Source: Gammaproteobacteria bacterium (GTDB lineage: Bacteria > Pseudomonadota > Gammaproteobacteria > Enterobacterales > Permianibacteraceae). From it: DNA of 64,000 bases. The position numbers and the translations under genes are program-made. Shown one piece after another: positions 40,592 through 46,603 of this stretch (position 1 is the first letter of the stretch; each line of letters opens with the position of its first letter). Below the pieces are notes generated by a model, which was not told the origin of the DNA, did no database searches, and saw only the letters and a program-made list of their open reading frames with translations. Where the stretch lies: positions 124,001 to 188,000 of the forward strand of contig JACPFT010000001.1 of NCBI GenBank assembly GCA_016182845.1. The letters are read 5' to 3'.

Positions 40592-41395
40592 ATGGGTACT
40601 ACTTACGTCGCCAAGCAACCGGATGAAAACGGTTTCGTTCAGTACACCGACGAAGAGAACAAGATCTGGGCGCATCTCTACGAACGCCAGATGAAGATCA
40701 TCCAGGACCGCGCCTGCGATGAGTATTTCGAGGGTATCCAGAAGCTGGGCATGGCCGCCGATCGGATCCCGCAGATCCCGGAGATCAACAAGGTCCTCAA
40801 CGCCACCACCGGCTGGGGCGTGGAGCCGGTCGCGGCCCTGATCAACTTCGAGACCTTCTTCAACCTCCTGGCCAACAAGAAATTCCCGGTGGCGACGTTC
40901 ATCCGCAGCTGGGAAGAACTGGACTATCTCCAGGAACCGGACGTCTTCCACGAGATCTTCGGCCACTGCGCCATGCTCACCAATCCCCATTTCGCCGAGT
41001 TCACCCATACCTATGGCAAGCTCGGCCAGGCCGCCTCCAAGGAAGACCGGGTGTTCCTGGCGCGGCTGTACTGGTTCACCGTGGAGTTCGGTCTGATGCA
41101 GACCGAGAAGGGTCTGCGCATCTACGGCGGCGGCATCCTGTCCTCCAAGGGCGAGACCATCTACTGCCTGGACGATCCCAAGGCCGAGCGCACGCCCTTC
41201 GACGTGCTCGACGTGCTGCGCACGCCCTACCGCATCGACATCATGCAGCCCCAGTATTTCGTGATTAACAGCCTCATGGACTTGCACGAGCTGGCCCAGA
41301 TGGATCTGATGGCCAAGGTCCAGGAGGCCAAGGCCTTGGGTCTGCACGCGCCCAAATTCCCGCCCAAGGAGAAGAAGGCGGTGGGGGCGTACTGA
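40592..41395 (+). CDS. phhA: Phenylalanine 4-monooxygenase
   Basis: A 267-residue pterin- and iron-dependent hydroxylase that turns phenylalanine into tyrosine with O2. Iron ligands are visible as His120 and His125 in the VFHEIFGH motif and Glu165 in YWFTVEFGL. The length is that of bacterial single-domain enzymes. It begins the aromatic degradation island. A phhB-type carbinolamine dehydratase to recycle the pterin is not next to it. Confidence 0.97.
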   Translation: MGTTYVAKQPDENGFVQYTDEENKIWAHLYERQMKIIQDRACDEYFEGIQKLGMAADRIPQIPEINKVLNATTGWGVEPVAALINFETFFNLLANKKFPVATFIRSWEELDYLQEPDVFHEIFGHCAMLTNPHFAEFTHTYGKLGQAASKEDRVFLARLYWFTVEFGLMQTEKGLRIYGGGILSSKGETIYCLDDPKAERTPFDVLDVLRTPYRIDIMQPQYFVINSLMDLHELAQMDLMAKVQEAKALGLHAPKFPPKEKKAVGAY

Positions 41396-41493: not shown

Positions 41494-42201
41494 ATGCGCC
41501 TGGAAATACATTGCGAGGACCGCGTCGGTATCACCCTGGAGATCCTCGCCATCGTGGTGCGTCATGGCATCAACCTCAGCGGCGTGGAGATCGGCCATGA
41601 GCGGGTCTACTTGCGTATGCACGAAATCGATCCGGACGAGGCGGCGCGGCTGAATGCCGAGATCGCCCGTATCCCCGGGGTCAGCGGCGTGGCGCCCGTG
41701 GCCCTGATGCCCACGGAGCGCCAGCATTTCGCCTTGGATACCTTGATCGACGCCCTGCCGGACCCGGTCCTGTCGGTGGACGGACAGGGCAGGGTGCGCG
41801 TGGCCAATGCCGCCGCCCGGCGCCTGGCGGAGCGGTCCGGCAAGAGCCTGATGGGTAAGGCAGTCCTGGAGCTCCTGCCGGATCTGGAGGTTCTGGCCCT
41901 GGGTTGGCGCCAGCGCAAGCGCCTGGCGGGCAAAGCCGTTCAGGTCGGCGCACAGCATTTCCACGCGGAAGTCCTGCCGCTGGGCGACGAGGCGGGCCTG
42001 GGCGCCGTGCTCTGGCTGAAACCGGAATCCGGCCTGCTGCCGCTGGCGGCCTCCTTGAGCGAATGCCGGGAGGAGGCGGAGGGCATGCTGCTGCGCCGTC
42101 TCTATCAAGAAACCCCCAGCACGCGCCGCCTCGCCGAGCGCCTGGGCGTGTCCCATACCACCGTGGCGCGCAAGCTGCGTGCCTATGGCATTTCGCTGTA
42201 A
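41494..42201 (+). CDS. TyrR-like regulator lacking the AAA+ domain
   Basis: A 235-residue protein aligning with both ends of TyrR (about 510 residues in E. coli) but missing the middle. The N-terminal ACT domain begins MRLEIHCEDRVGITLEILA (E. coli: MRLEVFCEDRLGLTRELLD). A PAS domain (about residues 75-180) has LIDALPDPVLSVDGQGRV, and the Fis-like helix-turn-helix is LYQETPSTRRLAERLGVSHT. No Walker A, GAFTGA or other sigma-54 activator motif exists. It should sense aromatic amino acids and bind TyrR-type boxes without an ATPase motor. It sits between phhA and hpd and a TyrR-type box follows it, so it is probably the local regulator. Confidence 0.88.
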   Translation: MRLEIHCEDRVGITLEILAIVVRHGINLSGVEIGHERVYLRMHEIDPDEAARLNAEIARIPGVSGVAPVALMPTERQHFALDTLIDALPDPVLSVDGQGRVRVANAAARRLAERSGKSLMGKAVLELLPDLEVLALGWRQRKRLAGKAVQVGAQHFHAEVLPLGDEAGLGAVLWLKPESGLLPLAASLSECREEAEGMLLRRLYQETPSTRRLAERLGVSHTTVARKLRAYGISL

Positions 42202-42264
42202 CAAAACTGTTCCAGTTGCTCACCGGGCAACGCCGAAAATGCGCGCAGAATCAGGCTTTTACGC

Positions 42265-42282
42265 TGTTGCAAAATTGTTACA
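42265..42282 (+). promoter_or_regulatory. TyrR-type box upstream of hpd
   Basis: TGTTGCAAAATTGTTACA has the TyrR-box layout TGTAAA-N6-TTTACA, with the essential TGT and ACA ends exact. It overlaps a candidate -35 TTGTTA (42275-42280) whose -10 would be near 42297 (TATGAA). Confidence 0.6.
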
Positions 42283-42317
42283 AATCAAGCTAACATTATG
42301 AAATACAAAGACTTTAT

Positions 42318-42331
42318 TTGATCTGCATCAA
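42318..42331 (+). promoter_or_regulatory. Perfect FNR-type box in the hpd leader
   Basis: TTGATCTGCATCAA matches the FNR consensus TTGAT-N4-ATCAA at all ten defined positions. It lies 59 bases before the hpd ATG and, if the promoter at 42275-42302 is right, just downstream of the start site, a repressing position. Confidence 0.65.
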
Positions 42332-42389
42332 AGGCTACCATGGGCGGATCAGGGGCATGCCCTGGGTATCCTTTCCATTCGGAGTCGCC

Positions 42390-43466
42390 ATGAATCACTT
42401 CAACGCCAGCATCAGCAACCCCCTCGGAACCGATGGTTTCGAGTTCGTCGAGTACACCGCTCCGGATGCCGAAGGCCTCAACAAACTGCGCCAGCTGTTC
42501 CTGACCCTGGGCTTCACGGAAATCGCCAAGCACCGTTCCAAGAACGTCAGCCTGTTCCGCCAGGGCGATATCAACTTCATCCTGAACGGCGAGCCGAACT
42601 GCCCGGCCGCCGATTTCGCCAAGGTCCACGGCCCCTCCGCTTGCGCCATGGCCTGGCGCGTCCAGGATGCCGCCAAGGCCTATGAATACGCCCTGTCCAA
42701 GGGCGCCAAGCCCTTCGAGCGCACTATCGGCTTCATGGAGCTGAACATCCCGGGCGTGCAGGGCATCGGCGGTTCGGCCCTGTATTTCATCGACCGCTAT
42801 GGCGACAAGACGGTATACGACGTGGACTTCCTGCCCCTGGAAGGCGTGGACCAGCACCCGGTCGGCGTCGGTCTCAAGCTCATCGACCATCTGACCCACA
42901 ACGTCATGCGCGGCAATATGAAGACCTGGGCGGACTTCTACGAGTCCATCGCCAACTTCCGCGAGATCCGCTATTTCGACATCGAAGGCAAGCTGACCGG
43001 CCTCGTGTCCAAGGCCATGACCGGTCCCTGCGGCAAGATCCGTATCCCGATCAACGAATCCTCCGACGACAAGAGCCAGATCGAGGAATTCCTGCGCCAG
43101 TACAACGGTGAAGGCATCCAGCACATCGCCCTGTCCACCGAGAACATCTACGAAACCGTGGAAGCCCTGTACGCCCGTGGCGTGCGCCTGCTGGACACTC
43201 CGGACACGTATTACGCCAAGGTCGAGACCCGCGTGCCCAACCACGGCGAGGATCTGGAGCGTCTGCACAAGAACAAAATCCTGATCGACGGCGCCCCGGT
43301 CGAGGGTATCCTGTTGCAGATCTTTACCGAGACCGTCATCGGGCCGGTGTTCTTCGAAATCATTCAGCGCAAGGGCAATGAAGGCTTCGGCGAGGGCAAC
43401 TTCAAGGCCTTGTTCGAGTCCATCGAGGAAGACCAGATCCGCCGTGGCGTGCTGAGCGCGGAATAA
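42390..43466 (+). CDS. hpd: 4-hydroxyphenylpyruvate dioxygenase
   Basis: A 358-residue iron dioxygenase of the vicinal oxygen chelate fold that converts 4-hydroxyphenylpyruvate to homogentisate. Iron-ligand regions are VGLKLIDHLTHNV (His), GIQHIALSTENIYE (His) and VFFEIIQRKGNEGFGEGNFK (Glu), plus the family C-terminal helix ALFESIEEDQIRRGVL. ATG at 42390 has GGAG upstream and matches the family N-terminus. It needs O2, which fits the FNR box in front. Confidence 0.97.
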   Translation: MNHFNASISNPLGTDGFEFVEYTAPDAEGLNKLRQLFLTLGFTEIAKHRSKNVSLFRQGDINFILNGEPNCPAADFAKVHGPSACAMAWRVQDAAKAYEYALSKGAKPFERTIGFMELNIPGVQGIGGSALYFIDRYGDKTVYDVDFLPLEGVDQHPVGVGLKLIDHLTHNVMRGNMKTWADFYESIANFREIRYFDIEGKLTGLVSKAMTGPCGKIRIPINESSDDKSQIEEFLRQYNGEGIQHIALSTENIYETVEALYARGVRLLDTPDTYYAKVETRVPNHGEDLERLHKNKILIDGAPVEGILLQIFTETVIGPVFFEIIQRKGNEGFGEGNFKALFESIEEDQIRRGVLSAE

Positions 43467-43479
43467 GACGAGTTGGGAT

Positions 43480-43524
43480 AATCCGTTCGACCCCTTCGAC
43501 AAGCTCAGGGCGAACGGATTTTTA
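43480..43524 (+). terminator. Repeat-derived hairpin between hpd and hmgA
   Basis: AATCCGTTCG (43480-43489) pairs with CGAACGGATT (43511-43520) and a T-run follows. The loop carries CCCTTCGACAAGCTCAGGG, the core of a dispersed repeat seen again after hmgA and, inverted, near 62118. It may attenuate transcription into hmgA. Confidence 0.6.
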
Positions 43525-43541: not shown

Positions 43542-44675
43542 ATGCGTAAGTGGATGAGTTTCCCGCACAAAGAGGGCAAGGTTTCGCGCCAGGCCCATGC
43601 GGATTTTCCGCCGGAAGGTATTTATGAGCGTGAAGTGGGCCGCGCCGGCTTTTTCGGCCCGGCCACGCACATGCACCACAGCCACGCTCCCACCGGCTGG
43701 TCGAGCTGGGAAGGCCCGCTGCGGCCGCGTGCCTTCGATCTGAATGAGCTGGACAAGGTGACTAGCTCGCCCTGGTCCGCGCCCACGGTCTTGCACAATG
43801 CCCATTGCCAGTTCCGGATCTGGACCCTGGACCAGAAGATGGACTACCTGGCGCGCAACGGCGACGGCGACGACCTCCTGTTCGTCCACGAGGGCGCCGG
43901 CGAGCTGTTCTGCGATTACGGCCATATGAGCATCCGCGACGGCGACTACGTGGTGATCCCGCGCGCTACGTCCTGGCGCATCGAGCCGGCCGTCAGCATG
44001 ACCATGCTGCTCATCGAAGCCACCAACGGCTCTTACCAACTGCCGGAAAAGGGCCTGGTGGGCCCGCACGCCATCTTCGACGAGGCCATGCTGGACGTGC
44101 CTGCCCTCGACGAGGCCTTCAAGGCCCAGCAGGGCGAAGTGGAAACCCGCGTGGTGATCAAGCGCCGTGGCGCACTGTCCACCGTGACCTATCCCTTCAA
44201 CCCGCTGGACGCCATCGGCTGGCATGGCAATCACTCGGTGGCGCGCATCAACTGGCGCGATATCCGCCCGCTGATGAGCCACCGCTACCATCTGCCGCCC
44301 TCGGCCCATACGACCTTCGTCGCCGAGCGTTTCGTGGTCTGCACCTTCGTGCCGCGCCCCATCGAATCCGATCCGGGCGCCTTGAAGGTGCCCTTCTACC
44401 ACAACAACGACGATTACGACGAAGTGCTGTTCTACCATGCCGGGGACTTCTTCAGCCGCGATAACATCAAGGCTGGCATGATCACCTTCCATCCCAGCGG
44501 CTTCACCCACGGCCCCCATCCCAAGGCTTTCGCCGCAGGCCAGGCCTATGCCAAGAAATTCACCGACGAAGTGGCGGTGATGATCGACACCCGCGATGCC
44601 CTGGAAGTGGGTGAGCAGCTCGGCAAGGTGGAATGGACCGGTTATGTGGACAGCTGGAAGCCGAAGACGGCGTGA
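43542..44675 (+). CDS. hmgA: Homogentisate 1,2-dioxygenase
   Basis: A 377-residue cupin-fold iron enzyme that opens homogentisate to maleylacetoacetate. Motifs include HMHHSHAPTGW, LLFVHEGAGELFCDYG, EVLFYHAGDFFSR (Glu and His ligands) and FHPSGFTHGPHP. It is shorter than the roughly 430-residue enzymes of eukaryotes and many bacteria. Since start, stop and all motif regions are intact, I read this as the compact bacterial branch, not a truncation. It lies between hpd and fahA. Confidence 0.93.
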   Translation: MRKWMSFPHKEGKVSRQAHADFPPEGIYEREVGRAGFFGPATHMHHSHAPTGWSSWEGPLRPRAFDLNELDKVTSSPWSAPTVLHNAHCQFRIWTLDQKMDYLARNGDGDDLLFVHEGAGELFCDYGHMSIRDGDYVVIPRATSWRIEPAVSMTMLLIEATNGSYQLPEKGLVGPHAIFDEAMLDVPALDEAFKAQQGEVETRVVIKRRGALSTVTYPFNPLDAIGWHGNHSVARINWRDIRPLMSHRYHLPPSAHTTFVAERFVVCTFVPRPIESDPGALKVPFYHNNDDYDEVLFYHAGDFFSRDNIKAGMITFHPSGFTHGPHPKAFAAGQAYAKKFTDEVAVMIDTRDALEVGEQLGKVEWTGYVDSWKPKTA

Positions 44676-44842: not shown

Positions 44843-45865
44843 ATGAAATTTGCGACTTACCAGAACGGAACCCGCGACGGCCAGCTGATGGTGGTCAGCC
44901 GCGATCTCACCAAGGCCGTGGCCGTACCGGAAATCGCCGGCACGCTGCAGGCCGTGCTCGACAACTGGGAGGCCCTGGCACCCAAGCTCCAGCAGGTTTA
45001 CGAGCGCCTGAACGGCGAGGGCTATGCCAGTGCCGTGGCTTTCGACGAGGAGCAGTGCCACTCCCCGCTGCCGCGCGCCTACCAGTGGGCCGACGGATCC
45101 GCCTATATCAACCACGTGGAACTGGTGCGCAAGGCCCGCGGCGCGGACGTGCCGCCGGATTTCTACGAGAACCCGCTGATGTACCAGGGCGGCTCCGACG
45201 CCTTCCTGCCGCCGCGCGCGGCCAACCGCCTGGATTCGGAGGACTGGGGCATAGACTTCGAGGCCGAGGTGGCCGTGGTCACCGGCGATCTGCCCATGGG
45301 CTCCGATCTGGTCGAATGCGAAAAGGCCATCCGCTTGGTCATGTTGGTCAACGACACTTCCTTGCGCAATCTCATCCCGGGCGAGCTGGCCAAGGGCTTC
45401 GGCTTCTTCCAGTCCAAGCCGGCCTCGGCCTTCTCGCCGGTGGCGGTGACCCCGGACGAGCTGGGCGATGCCTGGAAGGACGGCAAGGTGCATCTGCCCC
45501 TGCTGGTCCAGCTGAACGGCGAGGCCTTCGGCAAGGCCAATGCCGGCGTGGATATGACCTTCAATTTCCCGCGCCTGGTGGCCCATGTGGCCAAGACCCG
45601 CGAACTGTCCGCCGGCTCCATCATCGGCTCCGGCACGGTGTCGAACCGGGGCGAGGACGGCGGTCCCGGCCGTCCGGTCGCGGCCGGGGGCCTGGGCTAT
45701 TCCTGCCTGGCGGAAGTGCGCACCGTGGAGACCATTCTGAACGGCAAGGCCACGACGCCCTTTATGCGCTTTGGCGATCGCGTGCGCATCGAGATGCTCG
45801 ATGCCGCCGGCCAGAGCGTGTTCGGCGCCATCGACCAGGTGATCGCTCGCTACAACGAGGCCTGA
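44843..45865 (+). CDS. fahA: Fumarylacetoacetase (FAH family)
   Basis: A 340-residue hydrolase that splits fumarylacetoacetate into fumarate and acetoacetate. FAH-fold metal-ligand motifs are FEAEVAVVTGDL, LVNDTSLRNLIP, GFFQSKPASAFSPVAV and SAGSIIGSGTVSN. The N-terminus MKFATYQNGTRDGQLMVVS is typical of the bacterial type. The ATG at 44843 lacks a strong ribosome site, as the upstream DNA is repeat sequence. Confidence 0.94.
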   Translation: MKFATYQNGTRDGQLMVVSRDLTKAVAVPEIAGTLQAVLDNWEALAPKLQQVYERLNGEGYASAVAFDEEQCHSPLPRAYQWADGSAYINHVELVRKARGADVPPDFYENPLMYQGGSDAFLPPRAANRLDSEDWGIDFEAEVAVVTGDLPMGSDLVECEKAIRLVMLVNDTSLRNLIPGELAKGFGFFQSKPASAFSPVAVTPDELGDAWKDGKVHLPLLVQLNGEAFGKANAGVDMTFNFPRLVAHVAKTRELSAGSIIGSGTVSNRGEDGGPGRPVAAGGLGYSCLAEVRTVETILNGKATTPFMRFGDRVRIEMLDAAGQSVFGAIDQVIARYNEA

Positions 45866-45961: not shown

Positions 45962-46603
45962 ATGCTGAAACTCTATAGCTACTGGCGCTCCAGCGCCTCC
46001 TACCGGGCGCGCATCGCCCTGCATCTCAAGGAGCTGCCCTTCGAGACCCTGCCGGTCCATCTGCTGAAAGACGGCGGCGAGCAGCACAAGGCTGAATACC
46101 GGGCGGTGAACCCGCAAGGCTTCGTGCCCTGTCTGGTGGACGGCGAGCTGGTGCTCAATCAGTCCCTGGCCATCGTCGAGTATCTGGACGAGGCCTATCC
46201 GGCCAAGCCCTTGCTGCCTACCAATCCGGCCCTGCGCGCCAAGGCCCGGGCCATGGCTTATGTCCTGGCCTGCGACACCCATCCCATGAACAATCTCAAG
46301 GTGCTCAAGTACTTGAGCGGCGAACTCGGGGTGAGCGACGAGCAGAAATCCGCCTGGATCCAGCACTGGATCGCCGAGGGTCTCAAGCCGCTGGAGCAGA
46401 TGCTGGCCGCCACGGCCGGGCGTTTCAGCATCGGCGATGCCCCGGGTCTCGTCGATACCTGTATTCCGCCGCTGATCTATAGCGCCGAGCGCTTCGGTTG
46501 CGACTTGTCGGCCTATCCGATCGTGATGCGCATCCAGGCGAATCTGCTGGAACTGCCGGCGGTCCAGGCCGCCCACCCGCAGAACCAGCCGGATGCGGCC
46601 TAA
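45962..46603 (+). CDS. maiA: Maleylacetoacetate isomerase (zeta-class GST)
   Basis: A 213-residue glutathione-dependent isomerase of maleylacetoacetate. The zeta signature LYSYWRSSASYRARIALHLK with its Ser-Ser-x-Ser motif is present, then VNPQGFVPCLVDG and LNQSLAIVEYLDE of the thioredoxin fold, and an all-helical C-terminal half. It completes tyrosine degradation. It is read after a strong terminator, so it must have its own promoter or rely on read-through. Confidence 0.95.
   Translation: MLKLYSYWRSSASYRARIALHLKELPFETLPVHLLKDGGEQHKAEYRAVNPQGFVPCLVDGELVLNQSLAIVEYLDEAYPAKPLLPTNPALRAKARAMAYVLACDTHPMNNLKVLKYLSGELGVSDEQKSAWIQHWIAEGLKPLEQMLAATAGRFSIGDAPGLVDTCIPPLIYSAERFGCDLSAYPIVMRIQANLLELPAVQAAHPQNQPDAA

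Follow-up and report, generated by a model that had tools for sequence, protein, structure and literature searches.

Two of the genome's eight perfect FNR boxes precede its two detected genes for 4-hydroxyphenylpyruvate dioxygenase, hpd1 and hpd2. The most far-reaching interpretation, at a probability of about 0.42, is that FNR swaps the isozymes as O2 falls, turning Hpd1 off and Hpd2-PhhA2 on; direct activation of hpd2-phhA2 would be conserved across several gammaproteobacterial genera, and Hpd2 and PhhA2 would be the low-oxygen versions of their enzymes. Our preferred explanation, which we consider slightly better than an even bet, is that both hpd genes are direct targets of FNR and respond to it in opposite directions. 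The sequence itself contains the boxes at the stated spacing and a gene for FNR, and it shows that the hpd2 box is conserved; FNR binding and its effect are what we infer from these. An initial annotation of this DNA had described a TyrR-like box and a perfect FNR palindrome upstream of hpd1, and had read them as anaerobic shut-off by FNR combined with induction by aromatic amino acids. The observation is confirmed in part and its interpretation is supported in part. The predicted class II FNR box before hpd2-phhA2 is a stronger and less expected result than dual control of hpd1. What looks new is the opposite predicted FNR geometry on two paralogues, together with a conserved, putative FNR activation of O2-requiring enzymes.

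The first of the two genes, hpd1 (42390..43466; TIGR01263 417 bits, cut-off 277), lies in the window (the whole stretch of 64,000 nucleotides that was analysed), among genes that are all on the + strand. Upstream of it are phhA1, for phenylalanine 4-monooxygenase (40592..41395; TIGR01267 353.7 bits, cut-off 264.75), and the gene of a short TyrR-like regulator, tyrRs (41494..42201). Downstream are hmgA1, which is homogentisate dioxygenase-like (43542..44675; PF20510 over its cut-off, TIGR01015 at only 72.3 bits with a cut-off of 510.75), a fumarylacetoacetate hydrolase-family gene, fah (44843..45865; PF01557 and PF18288 over cut-off), and maiA, for maleylacetoacetate isomerase (45962..46603; TIGR01262 289.9 bits, cut-off 171.05). 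The perfect FNR palindrome claimed upstream of hpd is present on the + strand at 42318-42331 (TTGATCTGCATCAA), a predicted site that matches TTGAT-N4-ATCAA at 10/10 positions and ends 59 bp 5' of the hpd1 start codon (42390). It exceeds chance, as dinucleotide shuffles of 42190-42389 (n = 20,000) contained a perfect FNR box in 0.1% of cases. It is also the sole perfect TTGATNNNNATCAA of the window; the eight copies genome-wide, in 3.82 Mb, compare with two for the reversed-pattern control. A second FNR-like box (TTGTTACAAATCAA, 9/10; 42275-42288, + strand), unnoticed in the initial annotation, is centered 43 bp upstream of the center of the perfect one and overlaps the second of two TyrR-like boxes, described below, by 8 bp. 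A perfect box accompanied by another of at least 9/10 occurred in 0 of the 20,000 shuffles. The hpd1 FNR box is real and, judged by its sequence, probably functional.

The initial annotation had placed the TyrR-like box over the likely -35 and the FNR box just downstream of the start site. This arrangement is uncertain. A sigma-70 promoter scan of the region upstream of hpd1 returned no match of at least 9/12; there are three weak candidates of 8/12 on the + strand: TTGCAA-18-TAACAT (42267-42296, hexamers at 42267 and 42291), TTGTTA-16-TATGAA (42275-42302, hexamers at 42275 and 42297) and TTTACG-15-TACAAA (42258-42284, hexamers at 42258 and 42279). The first two predict a start at about 42303-42309, and the third a start further upstream. 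FNR repression at hpd1 fits the geometry of the box, as far as it can be read from the sequence. The motif TAnnnT, sought 20-24 nt after the box, was absent, the hexamers found there being GGGGCA, GGGCAT, GGCATG, GCATGC and CATGCC; a -10 at class II spacing is missing, so class II activation is unsupported and repression is the simplest reading. We regard it as highly improbable that FNR activates hpd1 too, from a putative further promoter. The same box does have an activating geometry at other genes of this genome, yet the positions 20-24 nt after 42331 offer only GGGGCA to CATGCC, and a class I box at -61.5 would imply transcription from 42386, only four bases short of the hpd1 start codon and past the likely ribosome-binding site. 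This misfit of spacing on the + strand, and likewise, by eye, on the - strand, led us to reject an activation of hpd1, of class I or class II, through the perfect box. A terminator-like scan gave a weak, small hairpin in the hpd1 leader (42349-42365, + strand); with one found against a mean of 1.0 in shuffles, it was rejected as a meaningful element.

Absence of the boxes from relatives had been named beforehand as evidence against the proposed control of hpd. We scanned 350 bp upstream of hpd1-type loci, which numbered 105 in total, 103 after removal of duplicates and 102 without the window's own. None of the 102, among which there is no congener, had a perfect FNR box, and one had a box of 9/10, against 1.34 expected at 9/10 or better. 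Among 12 genomes of family f8 that have both hpd1 and hpd2, no hpd1 had a perfect box within 500 bp (one had a 9/10 box at -246), and the same-family genome G002 had no hpd1 box of at least 9/10, its best scoring 7. By this comparison, which in the case of the hpd1 FNR box goes against the proposed control, the box seems private to the present genome. The gene itself may have an unusual history. In the tree, Hpd1 groups with Chromobacteriaceae, Neisseriaceae and one record named Xenophilus (support 100/96), apart from the Hpd1 of G002. Its identity reaches 83% to Chromobacteriaceae versus 71% to G002, and that of HmgA1 reaches 80% versus 70%; there is little difference for the fah product (65-69% versus 69%) and for MaiA (52-56% versus 51%). 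The tree placement and the higher identity to Chromobacteriaceae suggest horizontal transfer, and we consider such a transfer of hpd1-hmgA1 likely. No FNR box above 7/10 was present at any of the eight hpd loci closest to hpd1 (L077-L084, among them one named Xenophilus). Acquisition of the box along with hpd1 from Chromobacteriaceae was rejected on that ground, and the box was probably gained after the transfer, since the Chromobacteriaceae loci lack one above 7/10. These comparisons bear on another explanation, namely that the box at hpd1 arose by chance or has decayed and is without effect, and that FNR governs hpd2-phhA2 only. It would account for the lack of a perfect box in the 102 other loci and in the 12 two-copy genomes, and it agrees with the horizontally acquired look of hpd1; we nevertheless judge it unlikely, given how rarely shuffling produced a perfect box and that it never produced the perfect and 9/10 pair.

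The second gene set is located on another contig and consists of a divergent LysR-type gene, hmgA2, hpd2 and phhA2. Hpd2 scores 386.5 bits with TIGR01263 (cut-off 277), PhhA2 is over the TIGR01267 equivalog cut-off, and HmgA2, like HmgA1, falls far under the TIGR01015 cut-off. Hpd2 is 48% identical to Hpd1 and sits on a separate branch of the tree. Its aligned stretches DHLT, QH and FIE retain the His, His and Glu that we take to be the iron ligands of 4-hydroxyphenylpyruvate dioxygenase. The interval between hmgA2 and hpd2 contains a perfect FNR box that ends 65 bp 5' of the hpd2 start codon. TAGGCT follows it at 22 nt, as in a class II FNR promoter whose box is centered at -41.5. The arrangement of box, 21-22 nt and TAnnnT is the same as in class II FNR-activated promoters such as that of hemN; in contrast to the latter, the genes predicted to be switched on here, hpd2 and phhA2, encode an O2-requiring dioxygenase and monooxygenase. 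The claim that FNR controls hpd is strongly and independently supported by a perfect box at the other hpd found in the genome, and repression fits the hpd1 geometry. The general reasoning that hpd and phhA enzymes need O2 and would be shut off by FNR fails here, because the equally O2-requiring hpd2-phhA2 has a conserved geometry of the class II, activating type.

The conservation of this geometry was assessed in 51 hpd2 loci (the 30 best by hpd2 similarity and 21 chosen by hand from among the other listed loci; 52 with L164 added), which were labeled for hmgA upstream and phhA downstream by tblastn within the retrieved stretches; the genome's own hpd2 locus (L174) counts in the group with hmgA upstream. 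Where hmgA is not directly upstream (28 loci), a box of at least 9/10 occurs within 200 bp in 13 (shuffles averaged 0.67, with a maximum of 3 in 200), and a perfect one in 7, where 0.01 was expected. Eleven of these 13 are hpd2-phhA2 loci of family f8, and the others are L166 and L168; outside the hpd2-phhA2 group, only 2 of the 16 loci without hmgA upstream have a box of at least 9/10. With hmgA upstream (n = 23; 24 with L164, whose best box is 6/10), only the genome's own locus has one. In 13 loci phhA2 comes after hpd2 in the same orientation; 12 of these loci are from two f8 genera and one is from this genome. Within 200 bp, all 13 have a box of at least 8/10 and 12 of 13 have one of at least 9/10, though some of the f8 boxes are near-identical in close relatives, and the f8 genomes being related, the boxes are not independent events. 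In each of the 12 loci with a box of at least 9/10, TAnnnT, a loose -10 criterion, follows 21-22 nt downstream. Over the same stretches, this was the case for 12 of 13 boxes, compared to 4.5% of 2,223 other positions. L166, of family f7, likewise combines a box with class II spacing (TATCGT), and L168 has a 9/10 box without the -10 spacing. In G001 and G002, of the same family as the present genome, the best hpd2 boxes score 8 and 6 and so fall short of 9/10. FNR itself is over the cut-off in 15 of 15 relatives checked (the 12 f8 genomes, G052, G001 and G002). In the f8 locus L176, a gene of the glyoxalase/dioxygenase superfamily (950-1495) is found between hpd2 and phhA2; the gap between these two genes is of similar size in the other f8 loci (557-581 bp), and only 121 bp in the present genome.

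We propose the following mechanism. At low O2, FNR dimers would occupy 42318-42331 and probably the weaker 42275-42288, 43 bp apart, so as to flank the likely core promoter of hpd1. Bound FNR would obstruct RNA polymerase and partly mask the TyrR-like box, such that hpd1 would be shut off, and with it hmgA1, fah and maiA if they are co-transcribed. Simultaneously, FNR at -41.5 would act as a class II activator at the hpd2-phhA2 promoter. Hpd2 and PhhA2 would serve as isozymes for low oxygen, or as stand-ins that bind NO, and Hpd1 would be the enzyme of aerobic conditions, an exchange that may be likened to that between low- and high-affinity terminal oxidases. Two points temper the proposal: the hpd1 core promoter is weak, and Hpd2 and PhhA2 require O2, which makes their activation by an anaerobic regulator metabolically odd. 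If the proposal is true, oxygen sensing selects between dioxygenase isozymes rather than merely closing the pathway. It would then offer a clean test of an anaerobic activator driving O2-consuming enzymes, with low-oxygen kinetics, NO buffering and fumarate supply to be weighed, and it would bear on the odd reports that P. aeruginosa produces Hpd and HmgA when oxygen is absent.

One protein of the genome is a true FNR (NF008365 336.7 bits, cut-off 228), in which the cysteine cluster motif CxxCx5C is followed by a later Cys. Another, FNR-like protein (L003 874-1692) also has the cysteine motif, scores 183 bits against the same cut-off of 228, and may be an additional sensor of O2 or NO that acts through the same box. 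FNR boxes are also found in places typical of FNR targets, at hemN, directly upstream of fnr, and at a divergon of a NarK-like gene and NarX-like and NarL genes, with NarL above its model cut-off and the NarK-like and NarX-like proteins below theirs. At hemN, at the narXL side of this divergon, at a methyl-accepting chemotaxis protein (MCP) gene and at hpd2, the box is followed at 21-22 nt by TAAGCT or TAGGCT; hpd1 has neither. Two more of the genome's boxes lie at L072 and L073. A globin gene (L070 2336-2721) has a perfect FNR box downstream of TAGGCT and just 5' of its likely start codon, the start codon being the chosen one, 12 nt after the box, with a longer frame also open. The order of TAGGCT, box and start codon is that proposed for hpd1, and the globin gene looks, by this layout, to be FNR-repressed as well.

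These genes and the literature on P. aeruginosa bring up a different role for the boxes, which may mainly serve NO stress. Two FNR-like proteins, or a NO-poisoned FNR, would set the Hpd levels, and the Hpd iron center would buffer NO during anaerobic respiration, as proposed for P. aeruginosa HmgA and Hpd. In that organism HmgA and Hpd, both of which bind NO, are typically expressed only aerobically; in a norCB mutant, NO damages ANR, the two proteins are de-repressed anaerobically in an ANR-dependent manner, and they scavenge NO (PMC3963858). Their rise without norCB is also given in PMC9127344. The second FNR-like protein, the NarK-like, NarX-like and NarL genes and the FNR-boxed globin gene would suit such a role. 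Even so, from a class II box in front of hpd2-phhA2 one would expect expression under any condition in which FNR is active, NO not being needed, and we consider the NO reading doubtful.

Returning to the isozyme swap, part of it has precedent. The combination of FNR-type and TyrR-type control had been thought to be undescribed for hpd, which is only partly right: for Pseudomonas, ANR-linked repression (PMC3963858) and regulation of hmgA and hpd by PhhR, in P. putida (PMC4529145), are in print. As in the P. aeruginosa ANR system, an FNR-family regulator is linked here to low hpd expression without O2. The systems differ in that the repression of hmgA and hpd by ANR is possibly indirect (PMC4529145), whereas here a perfect predicted box is at the promoter, and in that the relevant passages of PMC3963858 and PMC4529145 describe no second, FNR-activated hpd. 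Dual control of hpd1 is therefore plausible, but close to known Pseudomonas regulation. In the open-licence literature searched, neither an activation of hpd or phhA by FNR nor a pair of hpd genes controlled by FNR in opposite ways came to light. The genes phhA, hmgA, fahA and maiA and that for hydroxyphenylpyruvate dioxygenase are reported to be induced in anaerobic biofilms in artificial urine medium, relative to diluted LB with nitrate as the reference condition (PMC3742457). The main text of PMC6588701 does not mention hpd, hmgA, phhA or tyrosine. On the TyrR side, Pseudomonas PhhR is said to activate the genes for phenylalanine and tyrosine degradation, and in Shewanella TyrR governs phhAB and fahA-maiA, the LysR-type HmgR* governing the homogentisate pathway (PMC3223726). 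The present locus resembles these systems, as far as they are covered by that account, in having a TyrR-family regulator that adjoins hpd and TyrR-like boxes upstream; it differs from them in that its regulator is ACT-PAS-HTH only, and from Shewanella in the assignment of the homogentisate pathway there to HmgR*.

The regulator itself is unusual. The 235-residue tyrRs protein matches the Pfam families ACT, PAS and HTH_50, and a Pfam search of it found no match to a central AAA+ (sigma-54 activation) domain. Its HTH scores 68.5 bits with TIGR04381 (cut-off 30) and is the sole TIGR04381 match in the genome, and the full TyrR model NF008085 gives 165.6 bits (cut-off 576), with model positions 1-164 of 520 as the best stretch. 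Residues 1-163 align to the TyrR structure 2jhe, and residues 195-234 to the TyrR-homologue HTH structure 1g2h. TyrR matches were obtained in 59 of 99 relatives and in 72 of 398 genomes of the phylum, the window being included in both counts, and matches to the N-terminal part were mostly in frames of about 490-650 residues. A second short TyrR (ACT-PAS and HTH in one frame below 300 residues) was absent among the matches listed for the 99 relatives and the 398 phylum genomes, although the 398-genome search, at E ≤ 1e-10 and with at most 7 candidates per genome scored, may miss a short form; the same holds for a further search of 369 genomes at E ≤ 1e-20, again with at most 7 candidates. G007 has a TyrR split in two, with frames of 370 and 189. 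In families f9, f26 and f27, some genomes matched with the HTH only, in frames of 320-429 residues, and these resemble the TyrR of Haemophilus influenzae, which is without the N-terminal activation part and is thus shortened in the opposite way. That protein and tyrRs are both naturally shortened, but the opposite part is absent: tyrRs keeps ACT-PAS and lacks the central AAA+ domain. In E. coli TyrR the AAA+ domain serves the tyrosine- and ATP-driven formation of hexamers and repression. The tyrRs protein is for this reason expected to be an activator only, and, as a naturally occurring variant, offers a way to tell the activating part of TyrR from the repressing one.

The usual TyrR box has the consensus TGTAAA-N6-TTTACA. 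The TyrR box that had been claimed at 42265-42282 (TGTTGCAAAATTGTTACA, box 2, + strand) is present as sequence and is a weak match, at 8/12 to this standard and 10/12 to the variant TGTAAC-N6-GTTACA. A better TyrR-like site, overlooked in the initial annotation, is box 1 at 42197-42214 (TGTAACAAAACTGTTCCA, + strand), which overlaps the tyrRs stop codon, scores 11/12 to the variant and 9/12 to the standard, and starts 68 bp before box 2. This 9/12 is the best standard score in the region and is equalled in 12% of shuffles; box 2, scoring no higher than chance, was rejected as a stand-alone significant TyrR box. Two sites of at least 10/12 to the variant occur in shuffles at a frequency of 5e-5, a post hoc figure, as the variant consensus was drawn from these two sites. 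Genome-wide, box 1 is the only site with one mismatch to it, and there are 20 sites with up to two mismatches, versus 15 in the reversed control. Box 2 resembles TGTAGCAAAAATGTTACA upstream of Vibrio hpd (loci L135 and L156). TyrR boxes of at least 10/12 precede hpd1 in 40 of the 102 other loci, against 2.7 in shuffles, and in 18 of the 29 hpd1 loci that have a TyrR-like gene in the retrieved stretch. TyrR-type control of hpd1 is therefore ordinary and plausible here as well, but the short regulator without AAA+ is not ordinary. With O2 and aromatic amino acids at hand, a tyrRs dimer would bind both TGTAAC-N6-GTTACA boxes and activate hpd1. The opposite sign, with the box pair repressing hpd1, comes into question because box 2 overlaps a candidate -35, covering TTGCAA at 42267-42272. 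We find this improbable for a protein without the central domain that tyrosine-driven repression needs in E. coli TyrR, and activation also accords with the description of Pseudomonas PhhR as an activator (PMC3223726).

An intergenic repeat was also noted near both hpd genes. Its core, CCTTCGACAGGCTCAGG, occurs at 106 places in the genome at up to one mismatch (control 0), and copies lie in the window at 43485-43520, between hpd1 and hmgA1, and at L067 3070-3086, upstream of hpd2.
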